Shown in pieces: positions 3,807 to 24,011 of a stretch of 64,000 nucleotides of DNA. The stretch spans positions 1,364,001-1,428,000 of the forward strand of contig NC_013892.1 of assembly GCF_000027225.1 (NCBI RefSeq). Direction: 5' to 3'. The position numbers and the translations under genes are program-made. A model generated the notes under the pieces. It was not told the DNA's origin, did not search any database, and saw only the letters and a program-made list of their open reading frames with translations. Position 1 is the stretch's first letter. Each line of letters begins with the position of its first letter. This DNA is from Xenorhabdus bovienii SS-2004 (lineage in GTDB: Bacteria > Pseudomonadota > Gammaproteobacteria > Enterobacterales > Enterobacteriaceae).

Positions 3807-4588
3807 GGTCATGTATTAAATGGTTAGTTGCTGTGATATGCTTCCGGCTTTTTAAGGATGAAGTATGGCCAAAGTTGATGTCTATTGCCGTTATTGCCAC
3901 AAATCAGAACAGGTCAAAGGACATGGGAAAGGAAATGGCGGACATCCTCGTTATCGCTGTTATAGCTGCTGTAAGGTCTTTCAGTTGGCGTATACCTATC
4001 AGGCCTGCAAACCCGGCGTTAAAGAACAGATTGTCGATATCGCGATGAATAACGGGGGAATTCGTGACACCGCTCGGATCCTGAAAGTCGCCACCGCCAC
4101 CGTCATGAAAACATTAAAAACCTCAGACTCCGAAACGTAACGACACTTCCCCTTGCGGAATGTGGCATCCAGATTGTCTGTGAAATCGACGAGCAATGGT
4201 CGTTTGTCGGCAATAAGAAAAACCAACGCTGGCTTTGGTATGCTTGGGAACCCCGCCTGAAGCGAATAGTGGCTCATGTTTTTGGCGATCGCAGTCGAAA
4301 AACGTTAGACAAGCTGCTTACCCTCTTATCTTCCTTTACTATTCGGTTTTACTGCACGGATGACTATGTTGTTTACGACCCACTTCCCGAGGAAGAGCAC
4401 TTGACTGGAAAGGCGTTTACTCAGCGTATAGAGAGAACGAATTTAACGCATCGTACCCGAATCAAAAGGCTGAATAGAAAAACCATTGGGTATTCAAAAT
4501 CGGAAGAAATGCACGATAAAGTGATAGGAACCTTTATTGAACGTGAACATTATTTTTAATACCTAATCTAATCATTTAATACATGACC
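3807..4588 (+). mobile_element. IS1-family element, copy 1
   Basis: A 782-bp element with terminal inverted repeats: GGTCATGTATTAAATGGTTAG on the left, matched at 20 of 21 positions by the reverse complement of the right end. It is one of three nearly identical copies in the window; the others are at 5469-6250 (inverted) and 25511-26293. No target-site duplication is visible around this copy (left flank CTTAATTA, right flank ATTTTTGG). Its right end truncates the 3' end of the gene at 4572-5114. Confidence 0.9.
3865..4559 (+). CDS. IS1 transposase InsA/InsB' (programmed -1 frameshift)
   Basis: InsA occupies 3865-4140 (91 residues). It has an N-terminal zinc finger (YCRYCH and YRCYSC) and a helix-turn-helix (GGIRDTARILKVA), and it is the DNA-binding subunit. 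InsB occupies the -1 frame to 4559, with DDE residues in EIDEQWSFV, TDDYVVYDPL and IERTNLTHR. The two frames join at ATTAAAAACC, where the A run is five long rather than the six known in classical IS1. The fused InsAB' is the active transposase. Both frames are open in this copy. Confidence 0.88.
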
Positions 4589-5114
4589 ATTTTTGGGGGT
4601 CAGGGAACAATAAAGGCTTAAACATTTTATTTTTATACTTTCCTATAGCGCCATAATAATCCCATCTTTTTAGTGCATCATCTTTACTTATAGGTTGAAG
4701 CTGAGGTAAATAATCAACTCCATTTATAGCCTGATAAAAACCAAGTAGATTTGAAACCAAATCTTCACCACTGTACCCACTATCTGTATACCAATTAAAA
4801 GGAAAAGAATCTTGATGTGCTTCAAATAGATGAGTTGTATGCATCATAATAGTAAGGGCAACTCTTTTTTTATCGTGTAAAGATAGTCCTCTTCTTACTT
4901 TCCATCTTGTTATTTTAGATGTGCCATATTTTAATCCAAGCCCCATGTATTGTGTGTACTTAATGGTAAAGTATGGTTCTTTAGTATCATCACCTGAATT
5001 TATAGCGGCCATTAACATTCTGGCATCATTACCTTTTGAATGCCCAGTATCTACCCATCCTAATTTTTCGGTATAAACTAACCTTCCTTTTATTACATCA
5101 CTTCTACTACTCAT
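4572..5114 (-). pseudogene. Effector-like protein, 3' end truncated by IS1 (paralogue of 31078-31764)
   Basis: The frame has 180 residues. Residues 1-175 align by eye with the intact 228-residue protein at 31078-31764: both have LVYTEKLGW, a D-x-GH motif, RGLSLHD, and SGYSGED followed by SN. After LLFPDPQK the frame enters the IS1 end and stops (WSCIK), so about 50 residues are lost. ATG has a strong site upstream (CAGGAGG). The D-x-G-H plus E-D-x-x-S-N pattern recalls DUF4056-type proteins, an assignment made from memory with low certainty. No signal peptide is visible. It was probably an orphan or duplicated type VI-linked effector and is now likely non-functional. Confidence 0.6.
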
Positions 5115-5468: not shown

Positions 5469-6250
5469 GGTCATGTATTAAATGATTAGATTAGGTATTA
5501 AAAATAATGTTCACGTTCAATAAAGGTTCCTATCACTTTATCGTGCATTTCTTCCGATTTTGAATACCCAATGGTTTTTCTATTCAGCCTTTTGATTCGG
5601 GTACGATGCGTTAAATTCGTTCTCTCTATACGCTGAGTAAACGCCTTTCCAGTCAAGTGCTCTTCCTCGGGAAGTGGGTCATAAACAACATAGTCATCCG
5701 TGCAGTAAAACCGAATAGTAAAGGAAGATAAGAGGGTAAGCAGCTTGTCTAACGTTTTTCGACTGCGATCGCCAAAAACATGAGCCACTATTCGCTTCAG
5801 GCGGGGTTCCCAAGCATACCAAAGCCAGCGTTGGTTTTTCTTATTGCCGACAAACGACCATTGCTCGTCGATTTCACAGACAATCTGGATGCCACATTCC
5901 GCAAGGGGAAGTGTCGTTACGTTTCGGGGTCTGAGGTTTTTAATGTTTTCATGACGGTGGCGGTGGCGACTTTCAGGATCCGAGCGGTGTCACGAATTCC
6001 CCCGTTATTCATCGCGATATCGACAATCTGTTCTTTAACGCCGGGTTTGCAGGCCTGATAGGTATACGCCAACTGAAAGACCTTACAGCAGCTATAACAG
6101 CGATAACGAGGATGTCCGCCATTTCCTTTCCCATGTCCTTTGACCTGTTCTGATTTGTGGCAATAACGGCAATAGACATCAACTTTGGCCATACTTCATC
6201 CTTAAAAAGCCGGAAGCATATCACAGCAACTAACCATTTAATACATGACC
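5469..6250 (-). mobile_element. IS1-family element, copy 2 (inverted)
   Basis: A 782-bp copy in inverted orientation to copy 1. Copies 1 and 2 bracket 880 bp (4589-5468) like a composite element. The outer flanks share only AATTA (3802-3806 and 6251-6255), shorter than the usual 8-9 bp IS1 duplication, so a composite transposon is not proven. Its end at 6250 cuts an AAA ATPase gene that follows hsdS. Confidence 0.9.
5498..6192 (-). CDS. IS1 transposase InsA/InsB' (copy 2)
   Basis: InsA is at 5917-6192 and InsB in the -1 frame ends at 5498. The InsB part is identical in protein to copy 1. InsA differs by one residue (SDPET instead of SDSET at its end). The zinc-finger cysteines, helix-turn-helix and DDE residues are all present, so this copy looks competent. 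The near identity points to recent spread. Confidence 0.88.
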
Positions 6251-6391: not shown

Positions 6392-7615
6392 TTAGATTTC
6401 GCCAGAAAAGGCTTTTTGGCTCAATGATGAAAAAGAAGCATCACAACCATCAAGAGATGCATTTAAACTGTCAATGTACTTTTGTACTCTCCAATAAATT
6501 GATCTAAATTTCTTTTGCAGTGGCAAATCGGGGAAAATTGCATCCGTAGTCTCGAACTTTCCCTTTGAAATATTCAACATAGAGCCACTAGTTCCAGTCG
6601 CCTGAGAGGTCAGCTTTCCTTTGAATCTAGGCTCCCAAATCAAGTAGTTTAGATATTCGGGCAATAGTATATTTTCACTTGTTTTTACATTCCAAAGCTT
6701 ATCTGGTAAAAAAACATTATTGTTATCTTTAGGGACTATGCACGTTGCTGCGACAAGATCTCTAGTGTTTGCTCGACTAAAAAGAAGATCACCTTTTTTA
6801 GGAAATACTAACTTCTTATCTGCAGGAATATCTTTTTCATAAACAAATTTATTTTCCTGAGGATTAAATTTGCCACTAGTTACCGCTGAAATTTTTAGCA
6901 CCCCATACTCTCCCTCATTACAAGGATAGCTTTCGCCTTTTGCACTCCATCCGGAGATGATCGATTTAATGCCGTCCACCAATGGCCTAACCTCCCACCC
7001 CTTCGGATTCGTCACCGGATCACCAAACATATCCAGAAACACGGCGCGGAGGAATTCATTGGCAAGCTGGATGGCTTGCTGGCGTTTGCGGCGGATGGCA
7101 CCGGCTTTATCGAGAATAGCGGCAATACGTTTTTGTTCTGTTAGGGGTGGGAGAGGGATTTCCAGATCCTTGAACCTACCTACATCCAAGTTCGAAATAT
7201 TTGTGGTTTGACGGCCACAATGCCTGATTCTATGCTGCGTAGACGGACTACTAATCCAGTGGTAAAGATATCTGCTATCAATAACCCTCTGCTTCGCACG
7301 GACTATAGAGATAAATCCCCCAGCTGTGGCCTGATAATTCAGCTTTGGTACGTAACTGGCCTTTCCCACAAGCTCCCAGCTATTAGCTGATGAAATCAAA
7401 ATATCTCCTTCACACAGAGCCTGTTCCTTTCTCTTTACTAGCTCCGAGGGAATAGCAATCAGATCACTTTGCTCGAGTCCTTCAACCTGAACATTTTTAG
7501 TACGCATAACCACAGTAGAGTTGGAAGATAAAGGCTCTACCAGGTCATCAGGCTTGAAGGTCACTCCACGAATGAACGATATAACATCGTCCAATTTAGC
7601 TTGAGGCCAACTCAC
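6392..7615 (-). CDS. hsdS: Type I restriction-modification specificity subunit HsdS
   Basis: A 407-residue target-recognition subunit that directs the HsdM/HsdR complex to a bipartite DNA site. Two target recognition domains are visible: residues 1-150, ending in the conserved helix region LPPLTEQKRIAAILDKAGAI, and residues 205-380, ending in FPDLPLQKKFRSIYWRVQKY. The GTG start overlaps the hsdM stop by 4 bp (GTGA), showing translational coupling. It is followed at once by the truncated ATPase gene. The frame is full length, so specificity is probably intact. Confidence 0.93.
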   Translation of the reverse strand: MSWPQAKLDDVISFIRGVTFKPDDLVEPLSSNSTVVMRTKNVQVEGLEQSDLIAIPSELVKRKEQALCEGDILISSANSWELVGKASYVPKLNYQATAGGFISIVRAKQRVIDSRYLYHWISSPSTQHRIRHCGRQTTNISNLDVGRFKDLEIPLPPLTEQKRIAAILDKAGAIRRKRQQAIQLANEFLRAVFLDMFGDPVTNPKGWEVRPLVDGIKSIISGWSAKGESYPCNEGEYGVLKISAVTSGKFNPQENKFVYEKDIPADKKLVFPKKGDLLFSRANTRDLVAATCIVPKDNNNVFLPDKLWNVKTSENILLPEYLNYLIWEPRFKGKLTSQATGTSGSMLNISKGKFETTDAIFPDLPLQKKFRSIYWRVQKYIDSLNASLDGCDASFSSLSQKAFSGEI

Positions 7616-9216
7616 AGCATCCCCTCCAGTGCATCCAGATCCGCCATAATCTCGCTTTCCAGCGTTTTCAGTTTGTTCAGAATCGTCTTCGGGTCCTCAA
7701 AAGCTTCTTCCTCATACACCACTTCCTTATAACGATTGATGGAGAGGTCGAATTTGTTGTCGACAATATCTTTGGCGTCCACCACGAATGCTTTTTGAGT
7801 TTTATCGCCAAAGGCTTTGTTAATATCTTTGGCTAAAGCGTTCCTCTCAACCAAGGCAATATATTGCTTCCACTTGGCAATAGCTTCGGGCAGGTCGTTG
7901 CTGCCTTCGCCTTTTAACGGCGTTCTTTTATCATCTAATGAATAGCTATCAGTTTGCAGGTCATAGAACCAGACACGTTCAGTGCTGCCACCTTTAGTAA
8001 ACATCAAAATGGCCGTGCTGACACCTGTATAGGGTTTAAACACGCCGCTGGGCAAACTCACAATACCTTCGAGCTGGTTATTTTCAATCAACTCCTGACG
8101 CAGTTGCTGGTGTGCCTTGGAGGAGCCAAACAGCACGCCATCGGGTACGATGACGGCTGCGCGGCCACCGAGTTTGAGGGCGCGCAGGATATGCGCCACA
8201 AACAGTAGCTCGGTCTTTTTGGTTTTCACCAAGCCCAACACATCGGGATTGGTATTGGTTTCGTCCAGGCTACCTTTAAATGGCGGGTTGGCGAGGATGA
8301 CATCAAAGAAGTTTTCTTCCTGCTGCGGGAAGTTTTCTTTAATGGATTTACTCAGGCTATCCTGATAGAGGATATTAGCTCCATTTACCCCGTGCAAAGC
8401 CATATTCATGCTGCTGACGCGCAACATAGTCGTGTCGAAATCGAAACCCCAGAACATCTTTTTGTTGATATGGTCACGGTAAGGCTCTAACAAGTCGCCG
8501 GTGTAGTGTTTGTTACCGTCGTCGTCTTCAAGAATGCCGAACTCACTGGAATGCACGCGGTTGAGATATTCCATGATGCGAGTGAGAAATCCGGCTGTAC
8601 CACAGGCCGGGTCGCAGACAGTATCAGTGGGCTGAGGATTAATCAGTTCGATCATAGCGTCGATAATATGGCGAGGCGTGCGGAACTGGCCATTGATACC
8701 GGCTGTGGTAAGTTTACTGAGCAGGTATTCGTAAATATCGCCTTTTACATCGCTTTGGGTTAGAGGCAGTTCATCCACCATCTCTACTGCACTGACGAGC
8801 ACCGATTCATTTTTAATTTCAAGATCGGCATCCTGCATGTATTCACCGATATGCCCCAAAGCTTCGATGGCACTACCGTCGTTGCCCAGACCATCTTGTT
8901 CATCGGACTTTTTGCCAAGTTTTGCAAAGTAAGGGAAAACATTTTGCTTAAGGTGTTTATGCAGTTCTTTGCCACTGAGATTTTTAAAGTTTTTCCAGCG
9001 CAACAATTGCCCTTCCGGTGTATTGGGAAACAGGCGATCAAAATCTTTACCTGTACGGTTCGCTTTGCGTTCGGCCATGTCTTCCTGCATGTCGAGCATA
9101 CGGGCGAACATCAGGTAGCTGATTTGCTCGATCACGGTTAAGGGGTTGGTGATACCGCCGGTCCAGAATTTTCCCCAGAGATTGTCGATATCGTTACGTA
9201 TTTGGCCTGTTAGCAT
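7612..9216 (-). CDS. hsdM: Type I restriction-modification DNA methyltransferase HsdM
   Basis: A 534-residue N6-adenine methyltransferase. The N-terminal HsdM helical domain covers about residues 1-140. The SAM-binding motif DPACGTAGFL is near residue 204 and the catalytic NPPF motif (ILANPPFKGS) near residue 308. With HsdS it forms the methylase, and with HsdR the full restriction complex. The stop overlaps hsdS, and about 100 bp separates its start from the upstream rmuC-like gene. The C-terminus ends in a helix typical of HsdM. No lesions were seen. Confidence 0.95.
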   Translation of the reverse strand: MLTGQIRNDIDNLWGKFWTGGITNPLTVIEQISYLMFARMLDMQEDMAERKANRTGKDFDRLFPNTPEGQLLRWKNFKNLSGKELHKHLKQNVFPYFAKLGKKSDEQDGLGNDGSAIEALGHIGEYMQDADLEIKNESVLVSAVEMVDELPLTQSDVKGDIYEYLLSKLTTAGINGQFRTPRHIIDAMIELINPQPTDTVCDPACGTAGFLTRIMEYLNRVHSSEFGILEDDDGNKHYTGDLLEPYRDHINKKMFWGFDFDTTMLRVSSMNMALHGVNGANILYQDSLSKSIKENFPQQEENFFDVILANPPFKGSLDETNTNPDVLGLVKTKKTELLFVAHILRALKLGGRAAVIVPDGVLFGSSKAHQQLRQELIENNQLEGIVSLPSGVFKPYTGVSTAILMFTKGGSTERVWFYDLQTDSYSLDDKRTPLKGEGSNDLPEAIAKWKQYIALVERNALAKDINKAFGDKTQKAFVVDAKDIVDNKFDLSINRYKEVVYEEEAFEDPKTILNKLKTLESEIMADLDALEGML

Positions 9217-9318: not shown

Positions 9319-11157
9319 TTAAGCCAACTCATCCATAGGTTCGTCTGCCGGATCTTTCACCTGTTCTTTCGTCTGCTCATCAATAGGTTCAACGATCAAG
9401 GTCAGGCGCTCGGTTTCGAAGTCTATATGTGCAGCCTCCAAGTGGGGCAGGCTTTTACTGACTTTGGCAGAGAGTTGACTGAACCGATCCACCTTGCCAT
9501 ACAAGCCTTGCTGTCCTACCAGCGCTTTGACGGTGCTGTTGTAGTGGTTGCTGACGGTACTCAGGGTGCCACCTAATTTACTTAAACGCTCGGCTACAGT
9601 ACACACTGAGTTGTATATATCACCTGCTTTTTCGCTGATTTCGCGGGCTTCGGCATTGCTGCGTTCAATCATCCACAGATTGGACACTGTGCGCAGAATG
9701 GGAATGAGCGTGGTATGGGAGACCAATACAATACCTTTTTTGTAGCCGTATTCGAACAGGTTTTTGTTATCTTTGAGCGCCTCGATATAGGCAGGCTCAA
9801 TGGGCATGAACATGAGCACAAAGCTGGGGCTACGCATACCAACAAGGTTGGTGTAATCCTTGAATGCCAGATCATCAATGTGCCTGCGTACCGCTTTAAC
9901 ATGTTCGCTCATGGCCAGTTGGTATTCTTCCGGTGATTCTGCACCCACAGCCCGGTCGTATGCGTTCAGTGCTACCTTACTGTCGATGATGATGTGCTTA
10001 CCATCGGGCAGCTTTATCAGATAGTCTGTCTGCTTTTGCTTGCCTTCTGCATCTCTGAATGAGCCTTGAACTTCATAGTGCGCCTCTTCCATCAAGCCAC
10101 TCATTTCCAGGGTGCGACGAAGCTGTGCCTCGCCCCAGGCTCCGCGCTTCTGAGAATCCCCTTTCAGCGCAGAAGTGAGGTTATTGGCTTCTTTGCTCAT
10201 TTGCAGGCCAATTTCCAGTACCTTTTTAATCTCGGCATTGAGGCTGGTATTGCCTTGCAACGAAGCATCGTGTACTTCGTTTATACGCTTTTGGAAGCCT
10301 TCGATCTGTTCGCGGAAAGGCTTGAGCATAGTGTCGATACTGGCCTGACTGGTATGGGTAAAGGTTTTGCCTTTTTCCTCGAAAATTTTATTGGCCAGAT
10401 TCTCAAACTCTTTGGTGAGCGATTGCTTGGTTTCACTGAGCTGCTGCATTTGCTCTTTAAAGTGTTCTTCTTTGCGCTCCAGCGTGGTTTTAAGCTCAGT
10501 ATACTCGTTACTGAGCGACTGATAGTGCTCCTGAATCTGATCATAACGCTGTTGTTGATCTACAAGGGTCTGTTTGACGTCTTTCAGCTGCTCGCGCGCT
10601 TCGGTATTGGATGCCTCCAACTCTTTGGCCTTTTTGCCTTCTTGTGCCAGCTCATCTTTGAGTTGGCTCACCAAGGTGCGTTCTTGCTGAACGTTCTGCT
10701 CACATTTTTCCAGACGGTCTCGTAAATCCTGCGCTTGTTCTTTCAACGCTCGGTTATCGGCTTGAGCGGTTTCTAGTTGCTTTTCTGTACTATGGTGCTG
10801 CCCTCGTAACTCTTCCAGCGTTTTCTGTAAGGATGCCAGCTCGCCTTTACGCTCGGCTAATGCGTCATTCAGGCGTTGTTCTGTGACCTTTGCATTGGTC
10901 TGTTGCGTCTGTAGCTTGCTTTCCGACAGTTCTTTCTCGTGCAGAGTGATACCAAGCTGCTTGAGCTCATCCTGGTATTTCTGGTTTTGAGTGTTGGCCA
11001 GCTTAAGGGCTTGATCAGCCTGTTGCAATTGGGTGTTGAGCTCAGTGTTCTTACGTCCTAGCAGGACCATAGCCAGCAGATAGCCAAAAGCAGCGAGAAC
11101 CAGGCCCGCCACAGAGGCAATAATCATGAGTTTAGTCGTCCATTCTAGTGATTGCAT
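9319..11157 (-). CDS. RmuC-like DNA recombination protein inside the hsd operon
   Basis: The protein has 612 residues from the ATG at 11157, which has AGGAG upstream; a GTG two codons earlier overlaps the hsdR stop. Residues ~10-33 form a membrane anchor. A long coiled coil follows to ~residue 230. The RmuC domain occupies ~250-560, with the PD-(D/E)xK-like nuclease motif in IIIDSKVALNAYDRA and the conserved KGDSQKRGAWGE. The acidic tail is low complexity. RmuC proteins are predicted nucleases that limit inverted-repeat rearrangement. Lying between hsdR and hsdM and sharing their operon, this one is likely an accessory factor of the restriction system rather than the housekeeping rmuC. Confidence 0.85.
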   Translation of the reverse strand: MQSLEWTTKLMIIASVAGLVLAAFGYLLAMVLLGRKNTELNTQLQQADQALKLANTQNQKYQDELKQLGITLHEKELSESKLQTQQTNAKVTEQRLNDALAERKGELASLQKTLEELRGQHHSTEKQLETAQADNRALKEQAQDLRDRLEKCEQNVQQERTLVSQLKDELAQEGKKAKELEASNTEAREQLKDVKQTLVDQQQRYDQIQEHYQSLSNEYTELKTTLERKEEHFKEQMQQLSETKQSLTKEFENLANKIFEEKGKTFTHTSQASIDTMLKPFREQIEGFQKRINEVHDASLQGNTSLNAEIKKVLEIGLQMSKEANNLTSALKGDSQKRGAWGEAQLRRTLEMSGLMEEAHYEVQGSFRDAEGKQKQTDYLIKLPDGKHIIIDSKVALNAYDRAVGAESPEEYQLAMSEHVKAVRRHIDDLAFKDYTNLVGMRSPSFVLMFMPIEPAYIEALKDNKNLFEYGYKKGIVLVSHTTLIPILRTVSNLWMIERSNAEAREISEKAGDIYNSVCTVAERLSKLGGTLSTVSNHYNSTVKALVGQQGLYGKVDRFSQLSAKVSKSLPHLEAAHIDFETERLTLIVEPIDEQTKEQVKDPADEPMDELA

Positions 11158-11159
11158 GG

Positions 11160-14100
11160 TCACTCCTGTGTGCTCTCAGGCTGTGAGCCTAACAATTTAG
11201 GTTCAGCCTTGATAAAAGGTTTTAGTACGGTGATTAACTCACCCACGTCATCGGCGGTAAATACGCCGTCAATACCCTCGTGCGAAACTGAGGTAAAAGG
11301 CGCATCGTACAGTTTTTCGATCCTGATCGAGCCGTGCTGGGCGATGTAGTTTTTCAGTAGGTTCATAAAGCGCACTTGCTGTGCTGTAAGTGTTGGGTGG
11401 GCGTGCAAAAAGCTCTTGAAGTGGTCTTCGATGGCTTGCGAGTCCAGCCCGATAATTTCACGCACGGTCAGGTGTAGTTGATCGGCAGTGCGGCCATAGA
11501 ATTCATTCAGCACCTCCAAACTCACACTGGGGTGGCTGGTGAGTATGGTCGAGGTGAGGGTTTTTAATTCTGGTTCGGCAATAGATTCGCCTTTACGGAT
11601 TTTCTGTAACGTGGGGTTGGCAGCTATCATCTGATCTAGAATATCTTTGAGTCTACGGCGGTAGATCATGGCCTCGTTGGCACCTGCGATTGTTACCTCA
11701 CGTTCTTTTAGTTGCAAACCGGTGTCACCCGTTTTTGTTGCTGGTATAGCGTACAATCCACCGCTAACGGTTTGGCGATATTTCATGATGCCCCGCAACT
11801 CTTTGCGAGCTTTTTCCAGCTTATCGATAGTCGGGTTTTGCCAGAACTCGGCACTGCGCACTTCTGCTATAACCACATCTTTCTGGCGCACTGCCTGAAT
11901 GTTAACGGCCAGCTTATTAAGTTCTGCCAACAGCAGCTCTCGACCATCATCAAAACAGCTGGCTTGCTCTACTAGGCAGCGTTCTATGGTGGCCATGAGC
12001 TTATCCAGATAAGTCGCATGTTTGTCGCGCAATACACGGGCCGACATTAATGGAGCGATGTGATTGGCCAACTGATGCTGAGTTTTTGCATCAAAGCGCT
12101 TCAGTAGATCGGTTTGCTGTAACTGGTGTACGACCCGCAATTCACGTTTTACTGCAATACTAGTATCTGGCAGGTCGTTAATATCGGCACGCAATAACTC
12201 AATGGCAGCATCGAAGGCGGCTGCATGGTTTCGCTGTAAGGCGGCCTGAGCCAGCTCAATCCGGGATTCGAAGGTAGTTTGCAGCAAAGATTTTCCGCCA
12301 GTGTCTTCTGGCTCCTGATATTCCTCTTCAAAGAAAGCGAAGTTAGCGTAATGGTCAAAAATCAGGAATTCGGTTTTGTGTTTGCCAGGCCCGAAAAGAT
12401 TGTGCCGTAGACGCGTACCTCGGCCAATCATCTGCCAGAATTTCACCCAACTTTTCACAGGTTTGGCGAAAACGAGATTAACCACCTCAGGCACGTCGAT
12501 GCCTGTATCAAGCATGTCGACCGAAATAGCGATGCGAAACTCGTTGTCAGCCTTTTTGAACTCTTTGATCAGGCTTTCCACATGGGGAATGGAATTATGG
12601 ATGACCTTGCATACCTTAGTACCGTACTGCGGATACAGCTTGCAGAACAGTTCTTCCAGATGCTCAGCGTGATCCTGGCGTTGGGCAAAGATGATAGTTT
12701 TACCGACCAGGGAGCCAGTTTCATCTTTGATGCCATTGTTTATCAGGTTTTCCAGAATAATGCGGTCAGTATCTTCACTGAAGATCTTACGGCCAATGTC
12801 TTTACCTGCAATAGTGGTATTACGGGCCTCTTCCTCGCCCAAGTCTTCTTCGAGTTGGCGCTTCTGCTCTTCGGTGAGGTTATTGTAGTGAATACCATCA
12901 CGCAGGAAATCAGTGGTAAGATCTTTAACCCGAAACGGTACCAAATACGGTGGTTCGTTGTTAATCGCTGCATCCAGCCCGAACTCAAATGTTGGGTCAG
13001 TGGTTTCGCAGTCGAACATATCGAACGTATTGCGACTGATAAATTTCACCGGGGTCGCGGTTAAGCCCACTTGAAGGGCATCGAAGTAATCGAACAGATC
13101 GCGGTATTTGTTGTAGATACTGCGATGGGATTCATCGGCAATGATCAGATCGAAGAAGCCTACATCCAATTGAGAGAAGCGGTTCATCATGCCGGGGTAA
13201 GTGGCAATATAGATACGCGCACTTTTATCAATCTTGTTGGTTTCACCAATCACACAACGCGGCTCAGAGGGTAGATTTTGCTTAAAAGCATCGTCGGCCT
13301 GTACCCGCAGTTCTTTGCGATCACACAAAAACAGAGCGCGCTTGGCCCAGCCAGTACGAAGCAGTAATTCAGCCAGTGCAATGGCAACACGGGTTTTTCC
13401 TGTACCGGTCGCCTGAATAATCAGCGCCTTGCGGCGCTGACTTTGAAAGTGTGCCGCGACTGTTTTGATGGCTTCGATCTGATAAGGACGGTCAGCAATG
13501 CTGAGCTCTGGGTTGAATTTTTCCAGCTCAGCGGCACGGTAATGGCGCTGGTAGATCAGATAATCCAGGCTGTCCTTACTGTAGAAGCCATACACCGGAC
13601 GATAGGTGTTGTACTGATGATCATCCCAAATGAAGGTTTCGTAACCGTTGGAATAGAAAATCACCGGGCGCTGGTAGCCCATGTGTTCAAAGGCATCGGC
13701 ATAGAGGCGAGCCTGCTCACGACCTGCTTGAAGGTTGGTATTGCCGGATTTTTTCGCTTCGATAACAGCAAGCGGATGACCGTTATCACCCCATAGCACA
13801 TAATCCACATAACCCTTGCCTGAGGGATTATTGGGAAAGATCACTTCAAATTCATGGCTAACCTGATCGGGGTTCTGGATATCCCAGCCAGCTTGCAACA
13901 GCATGGCGTCGATCAATAGTGCACGGGTTTTGGCTTCGTTCCATTGCAGGCTGTCGGCCACTAACTGGCTCTGCTGCCGGCGTTTTTGTCGGTCAGACTT
14001 GGCGGGTGGCTCAAGCTTGTCGATATTTCGGGTGCGCTCACGTTCCAGCTGCTCGATCACCCTTTCGAGTTCTTCCTGCTGCTTTTGCAATTCTTTTTCG

Positions 14101-14600
14101 TAGCTTGAAACGGATTTTTGCAGTTGGTTCAAAGTTGCCGTAGGGTCTTTTATATCGACAAAAGAGGGGATCTGGTCCTTCTTTTTGTTGTAGTACTTAA
14201 TACCCATATACATGGCCAACTGGTGCGCCGTGCCCAATGCCATTTGAGCATTACGCAATTCGCCTTCTGCACCATGGGCGGTATCGTTACCTTGAATACG
14301 CAAAAAGTTGATCTGGTGAATCAGTGACTTGCTGACGCAGTCTTCAAAAACCGGGTTTTTGATCAGCTCATAGAAGTTGGATTGCGGCATGTGCGGCAGC
14401 AGTTCTTCCTTATAAATGGCCTTGGTCAGTACTTCAGCAAAGCTGCGCAGGCGGGTCAGGGCACTACCCGGATCAATATGCAGTACCGCCTCGGCGAAAC
14501 TACCGAGGTTGGCAAGAAAATCATTTTCAGGTCGCAAGAATTCGAAGTTCGCTGATTTCATCAAAATTATTTTGTCCATATATTCTGTCCATACCTGCAT
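11160..14600 (-). CDS. hsdR: Type I restriction endonuclease HsdR
   Basis: A 1146-residue motor/nuclease subunit. The N-terminus (~1-110) resembles a DUF4145 domain. A coiled coil lies at ~150-190. The PD-(D/E)xK nuclease is at ~250-290 (KGYVDYVLWG, then VIEAKKSG). The superfamily 2 helicase has Walker A QATGTGKTRVA near 400, DESHRS near 490, GLTATP, and motif VI IGRGTRLR. The C-terminus matches the EcoEI-R type. The start is uncertain: ATG at 14600, ATG at 14579 or ATG at 14561 (MKSANFEF). A sigma-54 promoter lies 23-40 bp before the first ATG. The stop overlaps the rmuC-like gene. Confidence 0.93.
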   Translation of the reverse strand: MQVWTEYMDKIILMKSANFEFLRPENDFLANLGSFAEAVLHIDPGSALTRLRSFAEVLTKAIYKEELLPHMPQSNFYELIKNPVFEDCVSKSLIHQINFLRIQGNDTAHGAEGELRNAQMALGTAHQLAMYMGIKYYNKKKDQIPSFVDIKDPTATLNQLQKSVSSYEKELQKQQEELERVIEQLERERTRNIDKLEPPAKSDRQKRRQQSQLVADSLQWNEAKTRALLIDAMLLQAGWDIQNPDQVSHEFEVIFPNNPSGKGYVDYVLWGDNGHPLAVIEAKKSGNTNLQAGREQARLYADAFEHMGYQRPVIFYSNGYETFIWDDHQYNTYRPVYGFYSKDSLDYLIYQRHYRAAELEKFNPELSIADRPYQIEAIKTVAAHFQSQRRKALIIQATGTGKTRVAIALAELLLRTGWAKRALFLCDRKELRVQADDAFKQNLPSEPRCVIGETNKIDKSARIYIATYPGMMNRFSQLDVGFFDLIIADESHRSIYNKYRDLFDYFDALQVGLTATPVKFISRNTFDMFDCETTDPTFEFGLDAAINNEPPYLVPFRVKDLTTDFLRDGIHYNNLTEEQKRQLEEDLGEEEARNTTIAGKDIGRKIFSEDTDRIILENLINNGIKDETGSLVGKTIIFAQRQDHAEHLEELFCKLYPQYGTKVCKVIHNSIPHVESLIKEFKKADNEFRIAISVDMLDTGIDVPEVVNLVFAKPVKSWVKFWQMIGRGTRLRHNLFGPGKHKTEFLIFDHYANFAFFEEEYQEPEDTGGKSLLQTTFESRIELAQAALQRNHAAAFDAAIELLRADINDLPDTSIAVKRELRVVHQLQQTDLLKRFDAKTQHQLANHIAPLMSARVLRDKHATYLDKLMATIERCLVEQASCFDDGRELLLAELNKLAVNIQAVRQKDVVIAEVRSAEFWQNPTIDKLEKARKELRGIMKYRQTVSGGLYAIPATKTGDTGLQLKEREVTIAGANEAMIYRRRLKDILDQMIAANPTLQKIRKGESIAEPELKTLTSTILTSHPSVSLEVLNEFYGRTADQLHLTVREIIGLDSQAIEDHFKSFLHAHPTLTAQQVRFMNLLKNYIAQHGSIRIEKLYDAPFTSVSHEGIDGVFTADDVGELITVLKPFIKAEPKLLGSQPESTQE

Positions 14601-14622
14601 CGTCTCTACGTACAGAGAGTTT

Positions 14623-14640
14623 TAGCAAAGGACGTGCCAA
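14623..14640 (-). promoter_or_regulatory. Sigma-54 (-24/-12) promoter for the hsdR operon
   Basis: Read on the minus strand the site is TTGGCACGTCCTTTGCTA. It carries TGGCACG, four bases, then TTGCT, with the invariant GG and GC separated by exactly 10 bp, an essentially perfect match to the RpoN consensus. It lies in the 50-bp gap between the stop of the sigma-54 activator gene (14651) and hsdR (14600), pointing at hsdR. The predicted transcription start is near 14613. The sequence match is direct; control by the adjacent activator is inference. Confidence 0.88.
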
Positions 14641-14650
14641 TTTTATTTAA

Positions 14651-16150
14651 TCACTGGGAAATACCGTATTTTTCCATCCAATTGTTCAGTGTCTGGTAGT
14701 TTTTCAGCCCCAGCAGCTGTGCTGATCGGGTCTTGTTTTGGCCACTATGATCCAACGCCTTACGTATATAAGTCGCAGCAACGCTGCCAATTATACATTG
14801 TATATCAATACCTTGAGATATATCCATATTCATCAACCCTGTTTCCGGCTCTGGCATATGGAACAACGCCTGACGGATATCAGCGGCGGTAATATCGTCA
14901 CCTTGGCACCATAGAGCTGCTCGCAGCAATGTGGACTGCAATTCACGCACATTTCCTCGCCAAGGGCATTGAAGGATAAGATTTTTTGCATCAGGAGAAA
15001 TTTTCTTATGCCTAAGCATCGAGTCATGGATACTCATCGCTTTGACCAAGCTATCTGCCAGTAATGACAGATCTCCATCACGCTCCCTCAGGGGCGGTAG
15101 ATGTAGTACTCCAACAGCCACCCGATAGAACAAATCCTCCCTAAAGCTACCATTGGAAACCGCTTCTATCAGGTTGCGGTGGGTCGCCGTAATCAAGCGG
15201 ACATCGACCTTTTGCTCTTTGGTGCCGCCCACAGGGATGAACGTCCCCTCCTGTAATACGCGTAATAAACGCACTTGTATACTGGGTTCCAGTTCGCCAA
15301 ATTCATCCAGAAATAGAGTTCCACCATTAGCTTGCTCGAATAAACCTGCCTTGTCGGCTAGAGCACCGGTGAAGGCGCCTTTCTTATGACCAAAGAGGAC
15401 TGAATCGACCAGCTCGGTCGGAATAGCACCGCAGTTAACCGGCACAAACGGCTTGTTGGCTCTATGACTGGCATTATGAATAGCACGGGCAAAGAGCTCT
15501 TTACCTGTACCGCTCTCCCCATAGATCAACACTGGCACTTCACGTTCTGCCAGTATTTGCGCCTGCGCTTTCAGAGACTGCATGCGGGGGTTACGGGTGA
15601 CAATGTTGTCGAAGGCTGCATTGATAGGGGCACTGGCCTCTGCCAGCTGGCTAATCTTTGCGCTGTCAATGCTTTTAGCAGCGGGCAGGTATTCCGCTGA
15701 AACCTCAAAGGGGATATCCACTTGTTGGACACCCTGCTCTAGTGATGATTGATAAAACTGACAGGGATAATGGGTTTTACCCAATAAGATCCACACAGCC
15801 TGCATGGCCGGTGTTCCTGGGCTTAACAAGAGGGATAACTCGCAGCCCTCTACGGTAAGCTTAGATAGCTGCTGATTGGCCTGAACATAGATTTCACCGA
15901 AGTTAACAGGTGAAGATAGCGAAATGGCGTGAGCACAGATAGGCGTGGTAACTAGCTCCTGCAACCAAGCCAGATAGGACCTCACCTGATCTTCCGGGTA
16001 GTTGTAAAGCAGTTCTACGGCATCAAACGCTTGTGCTGTAAGAGTCGCAGCAATCGGCCCAAGCGCCTGACCATCAGCTCCGGTGCTGCCGGTGGCTTTG
16101 AGGTCGTTCCCCCCAATCCAGCTGACCAGTGTATGGGGCTTAGCCTTGCA
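14651..16150 (-). CDS. Sigma-54 activator with N-terminal CARF-like sensor (RtcR-like)
   Basis: The protein has 499 residues from the ATG at 16150, which overlaps the upstream XRE gene by about 10 bp; a longer frame exists but lacks that coupling. Residues 1-~160 resemble the CARF domain of RtcR: HTLVSWIGGNDL at the start and LLLSPGTPAMQAVWILLGK near 110, matching the TTGTHVAQ segment of RtcR. The AAA+ domain follows: GESGTGKE near 213, the sigma-54 contact loop GAFTGA near 258, and GGTLFLDEFGEL. A Fis-type helix-turn-helix closes the protein (TRSAQLLGLKNYQTLNNW). Known CARF sensors bind nucleotides, and RtcR responds to damaged RNA. The ligand here is unknown. Confidence 0.85.
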   Translation of the reverse strand, partial: CKAKPHTLVSWIGGNDLKATGSTGADGQALGPIAATLTAQAFDAVELLYNYPEDQVRSYLAWLQELVTTPICAHAISLSSPVNFGEIYVQANQQLSKLTVEGCELSLLLSPGTPAMQAVWILLGKTHYPCQFYQSSLEQGVQQVDIPFEVSAEYLPAAKSIDSAKISQLAEASAPINAAFDNIVTRNPRMQSLKAQAQILAEREVPVLIYGESGTGKELFARAIHNASHRANKPFVPVNCGAIPTELVDSVLFGHKKGAFTGALADKAGLFEQANGGTLFLDEFGELEPSIQVRLLRVLQEGTFIPVGGTKEQKVDVRLITATHRNLIEAVSNGSFREDLFYRVAVGVLHLPPLRERDGDLSLLADSLVKAMSIHDSMLRHKKISPDAKNLILQCPWRGNVRELQSTLLRAALWCQGDDITAADIRQALFHMPEPETGLMNMDISQGIDIQCIIGSVAATYIRKALDHSGQNKTRSAQLLGLKNYQTLNNWMEKYGISQ

Positions 16151-16349
16151 CATCCGTGAACTCCAGCATATCAGCCACCTCACATTCAAATAGGCGGCAA
16201 AGTTTATCCAAAGCCTCAATGTCGATCTTTTGCGCAGATTCTTTGTACATCAGCGTTACAGTATTCCTGCTAAGACCGGTTTCACGCAAGACGTCGGAAA
16301 TTTTCATTTTTCGCTCTCCCATCAGGCGAGCGAGATGGCAACGTATCAT
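16140..16349 (-). CDS. Small XRE/Cro-type HTH regulator
   Basis: A 69-residue protein made of one Cro/C1-type helix-turn-helix: MKISDVLRETGLSRNTVTLM, followed by the IDIEALDKLCRLFECEVADML helix pair typical of the YozG/HTH_26 group. It is the first gene before the CARF sigma-54 activator and overlaps it, so the two are co-expressed. It probably controls its own promoter and thereby the level of the activator, a common arrangement for restriction and defence operons. The ATG at 16349 has only a weak AGG-type site; the internal ATG of MKISDV is a possible alternative. Confidence 0.75.
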   Translation of the reverse strand: MIRCHLARLMGERKMKISDVLRETGLSRNTVTLMYKESAQKIDIEALDKLCRLFECEVADMLEFTDVQG

Positions 16350-16618
16350 GGCCTGACTCTACGATGTACACAATTAGGTCTAATAATATCCCAAAATTCT
16401 GAAAAAATTAAAGATTAACTGAAATATTTACGCGTAACGATAAAAAGTCGGGCTATATCGATTAATTTTTGATCGTTAGTTGTATGCAACAAGCTAACTC
16501 AACTCAGTAGCAGCTATAAGATGGCTGCGGATCTTAGATATGCCTCTGGTGCTGATGTCAGACCGCTATGAATGCTGTCATTGATATCAGCAGCTTACTT
16601 GTTGAACAACACTCTACA
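16350..16618. other. Intergenic region upstream of the XRE/CARF operon
   Basis: An AT-rich block near 16370-16395 (TATTAT on the minus strand) could hold the promoter of the XRE gene. No coding sequence is seen. The left border of the IS982 remnant is near 16619. Confidence 0.35.
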
Positions 16619-17091: not shown

Positions 17092-19482
17092 TTAGCTTAC
17101 TCGTGCTCTAGAACGTTCCTGTTCACGAATTCGGGCCTCAATTTCGGCGTAAAGATTGGCCTCAGCGTTTTCTCTATCCGTTGCAGTAACAACTAAAGCA
17201 TATGATTCGTGTTGACTATTGAGTGGAGCCCCCCACTCACGATCATTTCTAGTTACAACTACAAACCACTTTTCATCAGGAGAGCGACGCTTAAAGGTCC
17301 AACTAGATGATTGCACTGTACAGTGGTCACGTTGTTGTGCAGTAACAGAACGATTACTTGCCGCATCATCATTCCTGGATTTTGTGCCATCCTGTACATC
17401 ATGATTAAAATACTGCTGGACATCCTGTAACGATGTTCCTTTTATGAGTCTATAGGATATTTGCGTAGCCGCATAATCCAGCCTGGTCGTTCTGACGGCT
17501 GGTGAATAAGCTAAAGTAATGTGCAGTTCTCGTACTGCCCGTTGAGTTCTTAAAAAGGAAGCGGGTAATGGAAGCTCAAAAAATTGATGTGTATTATTCA
17601 CAATTTGTTCATCACACATCATAACAACTACTTCTTCTGATGAACGGTATAAACTATCTTCCTCGACGACTCCATATCCAACAACATCCCGAATAATGCT
17701 GCGGTTTCGAGTTGCTGACTCTGCTTTATAACACTCAACAACTTCTTCAGAAAATGTATTTTCCATCTGAGGAGTCAATACTGCATGGTTGACCAGCATC
17801 GCTCGCAACATATTGGCTGACATATCTGGATATTCATTTAGTAAACGTCCAGCAAGATGCGTTATATATGGTGCAGAAAAACTAGTTCCACTTTGTTCAG
17901 AGAAAAATGTGCTTCCTTGGAATTGATGGTGGCAGCTTAGAACGCCAAGTCCTTTGGCATGTTCTCGCCATTGGCCTCCGTCATTACGCATGGGGACGGC
18001 GAAATTACCACCATGAGCTACTATTTCCGGTTTAAAAGCTCCTTTCACTGACGGCCCGTGGCGTGTGAATGGTGAGGGTTGAAATTCCCCCGCAGGGCTT
18101 AAATGACTAATTTCATCCGCCCTACGTTGAGCATCAAATGTTGCATTGTGCCTGGCATAACTTCCTGTCGTGAGGACATTGAGTGCAGGGGCTGGATCGA
18201 TAATAACGGAACTGTTATGGATTAAGTAACTTGGGTACTCAGCACGCCAACTTTCCTGTGGAACATCAGGGTCACTACTTCCGCTAAAGTTACCTGCAGA
18301 AACAACGAACAGAATGTTGTGACGACGAGCCAGCACATCAAGAACATAAGCAATTCCCCTGATATGCTTACCATCATATGGTGCATTTGCATTACCAAGT
18401 GATAAGTTAAATATACGACATCCTAAATCTACGAAATACTCTACAGCCTCAGTCAACGTTGTTTCGATCGTAGAAGTATCAAATTCCCCTTGAGAATTAA
18501 GGAGTTTTCCATTATATAACCACACTGATGGTTGCCAGAAATTACTGGCATCGCAGGCTTCAACATCACCATATAGCGCAATACCTGCAACAGCTGTACC
18601 ATGCCCGCAATGGTCAAATTCGTCTTCATTAACCACAAAGCTGGCGCTTTCAGCTATAGCACTACGCAATAATGGATGTGCGGTATTAATTCCACTATCA
18701 AGAATACAAACTTTCGCAGCGTCAGGAGATGGGGAGGGGATGTGTGCAGGAATAACGTTGATATCTCTGTTCAATTTTTCGTACGAAATCCCGCTTGAAG
18801 GAAGCAAATCTACCATACGGACATCACGATGGGCTAGTAGTTTTTCAGCTTGCTCGCAATTTACTCGAACCCGATACATCAACAAGCTATCAAGATTAAT
18901 TCGATCCAAACGGTGAATCATATTTTCCTGAAGCCAGTTTTCAAATTCTTCGCAGATCCGCTCTCGTGAAGGATGTCGTGTGGTTTCTATCGGCCAAAGC
19001 TCAACATCCAGACCGAATGATTCTAATTCAGGAAAACCATAATGCCTGACTGACCAGCTTTTGCGATCCTCACTAGACCAAACATCAACACTGTCCAATG
19101 CTGTTAGGATCTGCTGGTAGGTAATATGTCCATGTCCCAATTGTGACAGGTGCTCCTCAAAGAGGGCAATTCCTCGTTCATCAGCAAAAGCAATACAGAT
19201 CGTTTTGTCTTCTTGGCTAACGAACTCGATACCATGCCTGTCCAGATGAGCAATATCTAACATCCCAGTATATTGTAATTTAAGCATGTACCGGCCATCA
19301 TTATCTTTTCCTGGAATTTGCGGGGTAGCTAATTGCGTAATACCTCGTAATTGCTCAGACAACATGCTTCCATGCAGGCGCAAGTCGGCACGTGGTGTTC
19401 TCGGAATGTTAAACTGACGTGTGCGTCTAGGGTTCTGAAGAGATTCTTTCGCAATACTAAGATGTTTATATTGTTCCGTCAT
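17092..19482 (-). CDS. ietS: Subtilisin-like (S8) serine peptidase, IetS type
   Basis: A 796-residue cytoplasmic-looking protein; no signal peptide was found. The catalytic triad is visible: Asp in CILDSGINTAHP (~residue 260), His in HCGHGTAVAG (~293) and Ser in SGTSFSAPY (~532). The N-terminal ~230 residues and C-terminal ~200 residues are extra to the S8 core. It follows ietA by 3 bp and the pair is clearly an operon. An AAA ATPase plus S8 protease pair is the anti-phage system named IetAS. How the protease is activated and what it cuts are not known to me. Confidence 0.85.
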   Translation of the reverse strand: MTEQYKHLSIAKESLQNPRRTRQFNIPRTPRADLRLHGSMLSEQLRGITQLATPQIPGKDNDGRYMLKLQYTGMLDIAHLDRHGIEFVSQEDKTICIAFADERGIALFEEHLSQLGHGHITYQQILTALDSVDVWSSEDRKSWSVRHYGFPELESFGLDVELWPIETTRHPSRERICEEFENWLQENMIHRLDRINLDSLLMYRVRVNCEQAEKLLAHRDVRMVDLLPSSGISYEKLNRDINVIPAHIPSPSPDAAKVCILDSGINTAHPLLRSAIAESASFVVNEDEFDHCGHGTAVAGIALYGDVEACDASNFWQPSVWLYNGKLLNSQGEFDTSTIETTLTEAVEYFVDLGCRIFNLSLGNANAPYDGKHIRGIAYVLDVLARRHNILFVVSAGNFSGSSDPDVPQESWRAEYPSYLIHNSSVIIDPAPALNVLTTGSYARHNATFDAQRRADEISHLSPAGEFQPSPFTRHGPSVKGAFKPEIVAHGGNFAVPMRNDGGQWREHAKGLGVLSCHHQFQGSTFFSEQSGTSFSAPYITHLAGRLLNEYPDMSANMLRAMLVNHAVLTPQMENTFSEEVVECYKAESATRNRSIIRDVVGYGVVEEDSLYRSSEEVVVMMCDEQIVNNTHQFFELPLPASFLRTQRAVRELHITLAYSPAVRTTRLDYAATQISYRLIKGTSLQDVQQYFNHDVQDGTKSRNDDAASNRSVTAQQRDHCTVQSSSWTFKRRSPDEKWFVVVTRNDREWGAPLNSQHESYALVVTATDRENAEANLYAEIEARIREQERSRARVS

Positions 19483-19485
19483 TTA

Positions 19486-20472
19486 TTATCCCTGACGAGT
19501 TTTATTTACATTTTCCCGCAAGAGTGCATTCTTAAGGTCTTTCAGAGTTAAAAACTCTTGGCTACGTAAAATCATTCTTTTGATTGCACGTCTTACAATC
19601 CGTTCTAAATCGGCACCACTTTTTCCAATAAATAGTGAGAGCACGGCATCATCTTCAAGCTCAAACTGGCGACGTATACCACGAAGTTTTAGCTTCATCA
19701 ATTCTAATAATTGATGTTTGTCGGGCAGTGGGAATTCGATTGCATCGTCAAACCGCCTCCAAATAGCGCTATCCAGAATATGCTCATGGTTCGTTGCCGC
19801 AAGAATCAAGCTTTTCCCCTGATATGCATCCATCATCTGTAGAACTGCATTCACGACCCGTCTTAATTCGCCATGATCCCCACTATCCCCTCGTTCTTTA
19901 CCAATAGCATCAAACTCATCGAAAAGTACAACCATTGGATACTGAGAGATAAAATCAAATATTTGGCGTAGGTTAGCAGCAGTCTCACCAAGATAAGAAG
20001 AAACAAGAGTATCAAGCCTGACGATTGCCAAGGGCATATCCAACTCACAAGCAACTACTTCTGCTGCCAGAGTTTTACCGCATCCCGGAGGACCAAAAAA
20101 GATTACTTTACTAACAGCTTTCATTCCATAGCTGCGTAGCACATCAGCTCTGCGATTTTCTTCAAGAATCTCTTCGATTGCATCTGAACTTGATTCGGGT
20201 AGTACGATTTCATTCAGAGAACGGCTTGGCTGTTTAATATCCAGTAATGGTAGGCCTCTCTCTTTATCAACAGGCATCTGGGGAGCTGCAGGCACGCGGG
20301 AGGTCTGTATGGTGTGATCTCCATACAGGATATGTTCAAGATCATTCGCAAGAAGATGATGCTGTTTTTGTCGTTCTTCCTCAATGATCACTTCCGAAAC
20401 ACGACGGAAGGTCGCGACATCACCTGTCGCCCCAGCTTTTATAAGCTGTCTGAGAACCTTACCGTTTGCCAT
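19486..20472 (-). CDS. ietA: AAA+ ATPase, IetA type
   Basis: The protein has 328 residues from MANGKV at 20472, chosen because GGGGGAAAG precedes it; the frame extends 10 codons further. A helical N-terminus of ~100 residues precedes a single AAA+ module: Walker A FFGPPGCGKT (~127), Walker B VVLFDEFDAI (~183), sensor 1 ILAATNHE, and arginine finger RRFDDAIEF. The architecture resembles the FtsH/proteasomal ATPase class, fitting a partner that feeds or gates a protease. It is paired with the S8 peptidase downstream. Confidence 0.85.
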   Translation of the reverse strand: MANGKVLRQLIKAGATGDVATFRRVSEVIIEEERQKQHHLLANDLEHILYGDHTIQTSRVPAAPQMPVDKERGLPLLDIKQPSRSLNEIVLPESSSDAIEEILEENRRADVLRSYGMKAVSKVIFFGPPGCGKTLAAEVVACELDMPLAIVRLDTLVSSYLGETAANLRQIFDFISQYPMVVLFDEFDAIGKERGDSGDHGELRRVVNAVLQMMDAYQGKSLILAATNHEHILDSAIWRRFDDAIEFPLPDKHQLLELMKLKLRGIRRQFELEDDAVLSLFIGKSGADLERIVRRAIKRMILRSQEFLTLKDLKNALLRENVNKTRQG

Positions 20473-20502
20473 TTCTTTCCCCCAACAAACCAATGTGCAC
20501 AA

Positions 20503-23093: not shown

Positions 23094-24011
23094 TTATTCA
23101 CCCTCAATATTCTGGTAATACACCTGCCGAATATAACGTCCTCGCCCGTCACCATGTCCTAAATCCATCGAGACCAGTGCCAGCGCTTCCCGCTCACTGA
23201 ATCCTTGCGCTATATAATGCTCTCCGGATTGCTGAGCAAAATGATAACGCATACTGTGTGGCGCTTTATTGCCGCTCAGTCCTGCACGTCTGACAATATA
23301 GCGGTAACGGTCTATGGCCTGAGTGATCGTCGGCTTATCAATCAGTTTGCCGCTATGTCCTGCCTGCTCTTGCTCCGCATAGGCAATGGCATGTTGCAGC
23401 GCTGCCCGATCCAATATGGTCGTCTGTCGAGACCGTCCACCTTTAGTACCGAACACCACCCGCACAGACGTATGCCCGTTTTCCAGTGCTTTCTTCCAGG
23501 TCGCTAACGATTTGTAGGCTTCCACCGCTTCTTTGGTACGCAGTCCCAGCACATACTCCAGTTGCATCACAGCCGCGACACTCCGGTCTTTTTGCTCCAC
23601 CTGTTGAAAAATGTCCCGGAACGCAGCCGGTGCCAGCGCCATTTTAGTTCCCTTGCGGCTGGTATCCGCGATACCCAATGCCCGGTTACTCAGGCGAGCA
23701 TTATCGGGATCAACCAGCTTATGCTTTCCCGCCTGCGCTAAAATGGCTCGCAGCACCGACATTTCATTTTGCAGTGTCCGGTGACTGAGATTGTTGGCTT
23801 TGCGCTCAGCCATATAGCGCTCAATATATTTCACCTTCAGGCTATCCATTTGCCGGAGTTTGATGCCATTGTTTTTCAAATAATCAAGGAACTGCCGGGC
23901 CATACGCTCACGATCCGCCACCGTAACAAAACTTCCGCCCGCCTGTCGGGCATGCGTGATAAAGGCTTTTCTGAACTGCTCAACCTTTGAACGTGTCGAT
24001 CCCTGCGCCAT
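23094..24011 (-). CDS. Tyrosine recombinase (integrase)
   Basis: A 305-residue site-specific recombinase. An N-terminal SAM-like core-binding domain (~15-120) is followed by a catalytic domain with Arg in LGLRTKEAVEA, a Lys-containing beta hairpin FGTKGGRSRQ, HSMRYHFA for the His-x-x-Arg pair, and LGHGDGRGRYIRQVYY near the C-terminus with the likely nucleophilic Tyr. Short integrases of this type occur in genomic islands and integrative elements. No phage structural operon surrounds it and no tRNA or att repeat was found, so the island it belongs to is probably broken by IS activity. Confidence 0.85.
   Translation of the reverse strand: MAQGSTRSKVEQFRKAFITHARQAGGSFVTVADRERMARQFLDYLKNNGIKLRQMDSLKVKYIERYMAERKANNLSHRTLQNEMSVLRAILAQAGKHKLVDPDNARLSNRALGIADTSRKGTKMALAPAAFRDIFQQVEQKDRSVAAVMQLEYVLGLRTKEAVEAYKSLATWKKALENGHTSVRVVFGTKGGRSRQTTILDRAALQHAIAYAEQEQAGHSGKLIDKPTITQAIDRYRYIVRRAGLSGNKAPHSMRYHFAQQSGEHYIAQGFSEREALALVSMDLGHGDGRGRYIRQVYYQNIEGE

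Follow-up and report, generated by a model that had tools for sequence, protein, structure and literature searches.

A conserved sigma-54 promoter site behind a CARF-type activator and the predicted inducible control of a type I restriction-modification operon in Xenorhabdus bovienii

Organization of the locus

A 64-kb window of Xenorhabdus bovienii SS-2004 (the whole stretch of DNA that was analysed; coordinates are positions within it unless another locus is named) contains a type I restriction-modification (RM) operon preceded by a putative sigma-54 activator of the RtcR_PspF2 family. All parts of the operon lie on the minus strand, in the order XRE gene, activator, -24/-12 site, hsdR, rmuC-like gene, hsdM, hsdS and the remnant of an ATPase gene (Table 1). 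HsdR, HsdM and HsdS are encoded by intact frames in one locus, which qualifies it as a type I RM system.

The -24/-12 site, TGGCAC-GTCCT-TTGCT, displays GG-N10-GC spacing, begins eleven bases after the activator stop codon and matches all informative positions of the sigma-54 promoter consensus used for scoring, TGGCA[C/T]-N5-TTGC[A/T], with a predicted +1 at about 14613. It is the only 11/11 match on either strand of the window, nine other sites reaching 10/11. Applied to the host rtcR as a positive control, the same scoring gives a 10/11 site immediately upstream, on the strand reading towards RtcB. The near-perfect promoter that the initial annotation had placed between the activator and hsdR is thus borne out.

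Table 1. Features of the restriction operon and its upstream regulators, with the evidence for each
Feature	Position	Strand	Evidence
XRE/HTH_26 small regulator, 69 aa	16140..16349	-	Pfam HTH_26 E 1.4e-18
RtcR_PspF2 sigma-54 activator: predicted CARF sensor (residues 1-150), AAA+ with GAFTGA, C-terminal HTH	14651..16153	-	
Predicted sigma-54 promoter site TGGCAC-N5-TTGCT, 11/11	14624..14639	-	motif scoring and locus survey
hsdR, type I restriction subunit	11160..14600	-	PADLOC REase_I 1449 bits
rmuC-like gene	9319..11163	-	Pfam RmuC E 2.9e-89
hsdM	7612..9216	-	N6_Mtase E 1.2e-62, HsdM_N E 6.8e-15
hsdS	6392..7615	-	Methylase_S E 9.4e-20
AAA ATPase gene, N-terminal remnant, 50 codons	6230..6382	-	sequence reading

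The activator frame is open from 16219; its likely start is the ATG at 16153, since GGAG lies seven bases upstream and the relatives (120 listed) are mostly 490-505 aa long. This start gives a 14-base overlap with the XRE gene, in agreement with the overlap annotated at the outset. The hsdR frame is open from the position given in Table 1, and its start, judged against relatives, is more likely 14579 or 14561. The product of the rmuC-like gene has a hydrophobic stretch at its N-terminus and a coiled coil, both judged by eye.

The activator matches the RtcR_PspF2 profile of PADLOC over its full length (716.4 bits; residues 29-520 of the long open reading frame (ORF) on profile positions 2-480 of 481). 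It carries the Walker A motif GESGTGKE, a GAFTGA loop, a Sigma54_activat domain (E 3.5e-68) and an AAA lid. Against the NCBIfam RtcR equivalog it scores 322.7 bits, below the cut-off of 650, and is hence not an RtcR; the true RtcR of the host (832 bits) lies beside RtcB elsewhere, at 424-431 kb. A Fis-type HTH_8 is listed for some relatives and stays at 13.5 bits here, under the Pfam cut-off of 22. The RtcR-like activator with a CARF-like sensor, Walker A and GAFTGA that had been proposed is therefore supported, while its Fis helix-turn-helix stands for some of the relatives and falls below threshold in this protein.

A Pfam scan of the CARF piece of this activator alone returned no family. 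The N-terminus is predicted to have a CARF fold, which had been set beforehand as a check. Its profile is similar to that of the host's own RtcR CARF, and the best solved structural match of the sensor model (Foldseek VIA-align) is a cyclic-oligoadenylate sensor. The strand-4 motif reads GTPxM in 50 of 51 rows, as in Csm6, whereas host RtcR has TTGTHVAQ. As judged from these alignments the motif resembles that of Csm6 more than that of RtcR, and the shared fold does not show the ligand.

Related loci and conservation of the promoter site

Related activators were collected by a profile search of sampled whole genomes (E <= 1e-125), which gave matches in 7 of 369 genomes of the class, 11 of 295 of the order, 28 of 398 of the phylum and 16 of 301 of another order; the samples share genomes, and a number of the phylum matches are confined to the AAA+ part. 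Together with plasmid records, viral contigs and genome contigs, 57 activator genes were kept. Seventeen genome-sample rows were dropped because CARF and AAA were not spanned or the gene ran off the contig end (G756, G676, G708, G799 (second), G770 (two), G673 (two), G785 (second), G700, G763 (second), G679 (two), G682, G759, G1127 and G1196). Seven of 175 plasmid records were used, at a query coverage of at least 80%. From 11 viral loci, L009 and L011 were retained, L010 being a near-copy of L009 and 8 being partial matches. The genome contigs, searched with generic AAA+ patterns, supplied L029 and L093 out of 80 loci; L028 is on the same contig as L191, and 77 whose match lay mostly in the AAA+ part were dropped.

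The first recognised downstream gene is hsdR in 38 of the 57 loci (3.1 kb away in L202). A VWA-phosphatase-kinase set lies downstream in seven (in L167 at a distance of 4.4 kb, with another gene in between), and a relative of one 352-aa protein without a Pfam family in the two viral contigs. In the remaining 10 loci the reference set recognises nothing downstream; of these, L206 starts with a MoxR-VWA pair and L169, by eye, has a similar arrangement. The placing of restriction genes under a switch of this type had been called unusual. Within the activator family this does not hold, given the 38 hsdR loci and an association in print since 2014 and again in 2024. As separate observations, L009 and L011 share the arrangement of activator and site, and carry a further member of the 352-aa protein family on the far side. 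In L193 (5142-11915) the neighbours of the activator, whose CARF score is the second lowest in the set, are two RAMP (type III CRISPR) genes on the opposite strand; the CARF regulator of L193 may read Cas10 products.

When the region searched after the activator stop ends at the next ORF, 40 of the 57 loci have a site of 10/11 or better, as compared to 0.25% of mononucleotide shuffles and to none of the 57 on the opposite strand or inside the downstream genes. With a fixed interval of -60 to +330 the count rises to 42, where 1.1% is predicted from the site density of downstream genes; the rate among dinucleotide shuffles is 1.7%, and again no locus has a site on the opposite strand. The median offset from the first base of the stop codon is 7 bases, with 37 of the 42 sites within -20 to +30; in nine, the T of TGGCA directly follows the stop codon. 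A 6-mer count made without any motif assumption places TGGCAC, TTGGCA and TGGCAT first. The site is present in 22 of 32 clusters at 70% protein identity, and among the hsdR loci it is kept at 10/11 in 34 of 38 and at 9/11 in 36. Conservation in homologous loci, likewise chosen beforehand as a check, is thus found, and selection seems to act on the -24/-12 site, to judge from its retention in the hsdR loci.

A co-directional hsdM comes after hsdR in 35 loci; the distance is at most 60 bases in 19, including nine with a 4-base overlap, and a positive gap separates the two genes in 26. Between 220 bases before hsdM and 30 bases into it, none of these 35 loci has a further sigma-54 site reaching 10/11. 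The proximity of hsdM to hsdR and the lack of such a site make nuclease and methylase look as though they are fired together. No terminator-like site is found in the window between the activator stop and hsdR, a space of only about 50 bases, so that read-through may supply a basal level of the operon.

Predicted control of the operon and competing explanations

As far as sequence can tell, the parts, the activator family, the CARF fold, the conserved promoter and the shared operon are all in place. From these we infer that sigma-54 and this activator drive the operon, as well as the read-through, the signal and the role of the XRE gene outlined below. The locus is likely to be an inducible type I RM operon under a CARF-gated sigma-54 activator. 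The CARF domain would sense a nucleotide-type signal of infection or stress, upon which the AAA+ ring would open the sigma-54 polymerase waiting at the -24/-12 site that closely follows the activator gene; a shared transcript would then cover hsdR, the rmuC-like gene, hsdM and hsdS, and would once have included an ATPase pair as well. Low read-through from the activator transcript probably maintains chromosomal methylation from one induction to the next, and the switch would raise the whole enzyme rather than add nuclease to an unmethylated cell. Such read-through would partly answer how methylation precedes restriction. The XRE gene may form a second, local layer of control akin to those of other type I systems.

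Several results weigh against this explanation. Fifteen of the 57 loci lack a 10/11 site: nine have no recognised restriction or VWA gene next to the activator (L029, L173, L186, L193, two genes of L202, where the minus-strand one has it 3.1 kb away, and L203-L205), and six do have such a gene, namely L022 (best 8), L024, L093, L166 and L182 (9), and L171, with its activator in two frames and a 9 further down. The loci are mutually related, and a binomial figure for the site count therefore overstates their independence. An enhancer site is found neither in the window nor as a recurring palindrome elsewhere. In the 320 bases before the promoter no palindrome recurs among the 46 loci whose site scores 9/11 or better; in the 250 bases before the activator, one of score >=7 is present in 23 of 57 loci as compared to 20% of shuffles, and the few strong ones, such as GTAAATAAATTTAC in L009, do not recur across loci.

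The control set of hsdR loci without an adjacent activator is also weak. Twelve of 17 rows were fetched; the remaining five comprised the row of the window itself, three with a neighbouring activator, and G169. Eleven of the twelve have no 10/11 site within -600 to +150 of the hsdR frame, a count to be read with HsdRs only 33-39% identical, mostly another gene order, several uncertain starts, only 60 bases upstream in L229 and a 9/11 site in L234 and L235. The twelfth, L226 (G162, ~6400-6640), has an HsdR 84% identical, keeps the site at 10/11 and retains about 20 codons of the activator 3' end (by eye); its genome has no full-length RtcR_PspF2 match. It reads as the relic of a deleted activator, a natural regulator deletion, and its retention of site and operon indicates that the genes may persist without the switch.

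A fortuitous origin of the site, with the activator acting at some other place, has a negligible probability. Ten sites of at least 10/11 do occur on the two strands of the window, this one included, but it alone reaches 11/11 and its position after the activator stop is conserved; with 42 of 57 loci against 1.7% of dinucleotide shuffles, a chance origin was rejected. Constitutive restriction with a booster, in which sigma-70 accounts for most hsdRMS transcription and the sigma-54 promoter does no more than add to it under stress, falls just short of an even chance and is compatible with the inducible operon. Its sigma-70 transcripts would come by read-through from the XRE-activator promoter or from promoters inside hsdR or before hsdM, consistent with the short, terminator-free space before hsdR, with the positive gaps before hsdM, which leave room for other promoters, and with L226. 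The apparent selection on the -24/-12 site in 34 of 38 hsdR loci and the lack of a second 10/11 site before hsdM argue the other way. Induced self-restriction, whereby a silent operon would leave the chromosome unmethylated and induction would cut phage and host DNA in an abortive response, is quite improbable. A single sigma-54 promoter does stand ahead of both hsdR and hsdM, and no intergenic promoter can split them in the nine loci with a 4-base overlap. However, read-through is likely, type I systems are safeguarded after translation, for example through the degradation of HsdR by ClpXP (according to the available part of PMC12707154), and the methylase works without HsdR (PMC12707154, section 20).

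As regards the signal, the initial annotation had suggested a nucleotide or an RNA end, by analogy with RtcR. It is conceivable, at somewhat longer odds than the booster, that damaged RNA is sensed, with RNA or tRNA fragments carrying cyclic phosphate ends as ligands of the CARF domain, as proposed for RtcR, and that restriction belongs to an RNA-damage response. The similarity to the host RtcR CARF profile, the RtcB encoded in the genome and the lack of a Cas10 palm or SMODS match there point this way. The accessible portions of two papers agree with it: damaged RNA is proposed for the RtcR-like regulators of CoCoNuT superoperons (PMC11090510), and oligoadenylates do not activate RtcR in vitro (PMC9650030). 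The Csm6-like GTPxM and the best solved match, a cyclic-oligoadenylate sensor, speak against it, although fold alone does not show the ligand. In the host genome the search for signal enzymes covered the Cas10 palm and SMODS, both without a match, other cyclases not being searched.

The promoter evidence and the Csm6-like sensor make inducible restriction a testable idea. If hsdR and hsdM are indeed fired together by a CARF-gated sigma-54 promoter, an infection signal would induce restriction, and the question of how methylation of the chromosome precedes the nuclease would become accessible to direct experiment. The conserved promoter also offers a ready reporter for finding the ligand of this CARF sensor branch.

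Known systems, the XRE gene and the paralogous locus

RtcR-like CARF-AAA-HTH proteins have been described as often associated with RM systems, with action through sigma-54 predicted (Makarova et al. 2014, PMC4012209, in the part available). The association is therefore not new, and the shared promoter is new support for it; the available part of that account contains no promoter, and the -24/-12 site and its conservation are added here. The activator belongs to the family of the PADLOC model PDLC01995 (716 bits). No report of a -24/-12 site before hsdR was found in the literature search, outside which many subscription papers lie, so such a report may exist.

CoCoNuT superoperons, as the accessible text of PMC11090510 (eLife 2024) describes them, have RtcR homologues at their head, type I RM genes and an RmuC-fused ShdA, with RNA fragments bearing cyclic phosphate ends as the proposed signal. 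The present locus resembles them in its activator, type I RM genes and transmembrane (TM)-coiled-coil-RmuC gene in one direction, but insertion sequences rather than CoCoNuT genes end the operon after hsdS (cnuB, cnuC and cnuH, judged at the operon end only). The rmuC-like gene also resembles ShdA of Shield, an RmuC-domain defence found only in Pseudomonas according to the available part of PMC10270631, in its described architecture of TM helix, long coiled coil and RmuC, a comparison by description only with TM helix and coiled coil judged by eye. With the RtcR/rtcBA RNA repair operon the locus shares a CARF-AAA-HTH activator and a sigma-54 promoter, and it differs in an activator below the RtcR cut-off, another target operon and a CARF that keeps GTPxM. 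Unlike the Csm6 and Csa3 CARF proteins of type III CRISPR, the predicted output is transcription through sigma-54, in a genome with no Cas10 palm match. EcoKI is likewise a type I enzyme with hsdR before hsdM and hsdS (PMC12707154, section 20), although it has separate promoters for hsdR and hsdMS (PMC12707154), whereas here one sigma-54 promoter precedes both.

The overlap of XRE and activator genes occurs in this locus only. A translated search of the 1 kb before each of the other 56 activators (L174 and L188 having less than that) revealed two XRE relatives, both in hsdR loci: L175 (41%, ~450 bases away) and L177 (28%, E 3e-5, ~80 bases away). Relatives at the DNA level (72-78% over ~190 bases) lie directly before other type I genes, followed on an Enterobacter-complex plasmid by hsdR (two frames), hsdS and an ATPase, and on a Vibrio cidicii plasmid by hsdM and hsdS. 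Short palindromes seen by eye, CTCTGTACGTAGAG in the hsdR leader (14604-14617) and TTACGCGTAA upstream of the XRE gene (~16425-16440), are possible XRE operators.

A paralogous RtcR_PspF2 activator, 58% identical, lies about 75 kb away in the same genome (L026, G000:C1:1443000-1462000). There, the sigma-54 site TGGCACGAAGTGTGCT is found 219 bases after the start of the stop codon, ahead of a CoCoNuT-like VWA-PP2C-kinase-helicase operon; this VWA-phosphatase-kinase-MkoA-like helicase set resembles CoCoNuT with TerY-P. A rather unlikely extension is a CRISPR-free alarm, in which Csm6-like CARF activators such as these two paralogues would respond to a cyclic or linear oligonucleotide produced independently of Cas10 and switch on the sigma-54 promoters of unrelated defence operons, type I restriction at one locus and the VWA-phosphatase-kinase-helicase set at the other, restriction being induced and not standing. 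Close to each activator lies a 305-aa integrase-like gene, the two being similar by eye, at 23094-24011 (-) in the window and at L026:14580-15497 (-), as if related mobile elements carried both.

An IetS-IetA two-gene defence system lies just upstream of the XRE gene, at 17092-20502 (-) (PADLOC 1163 and 352 bits), which marks the locus as a defence island. At the other end of the operon, the ATPase remnant retains a Walker A motif before its frame runs into an insertion sequence, in keeping with the cut-off ATPase first annotated; in L020 and L179 an ATPase and a partner gene occupy the matching position. The truncation is due to near-identical two-ORF insertion-sequence copies in inverted order, at 3865-4559 (+) and 5498-6192 (-). 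Between the two copies lies a 180-aa ORF (4572-5114) without a Pfam family.

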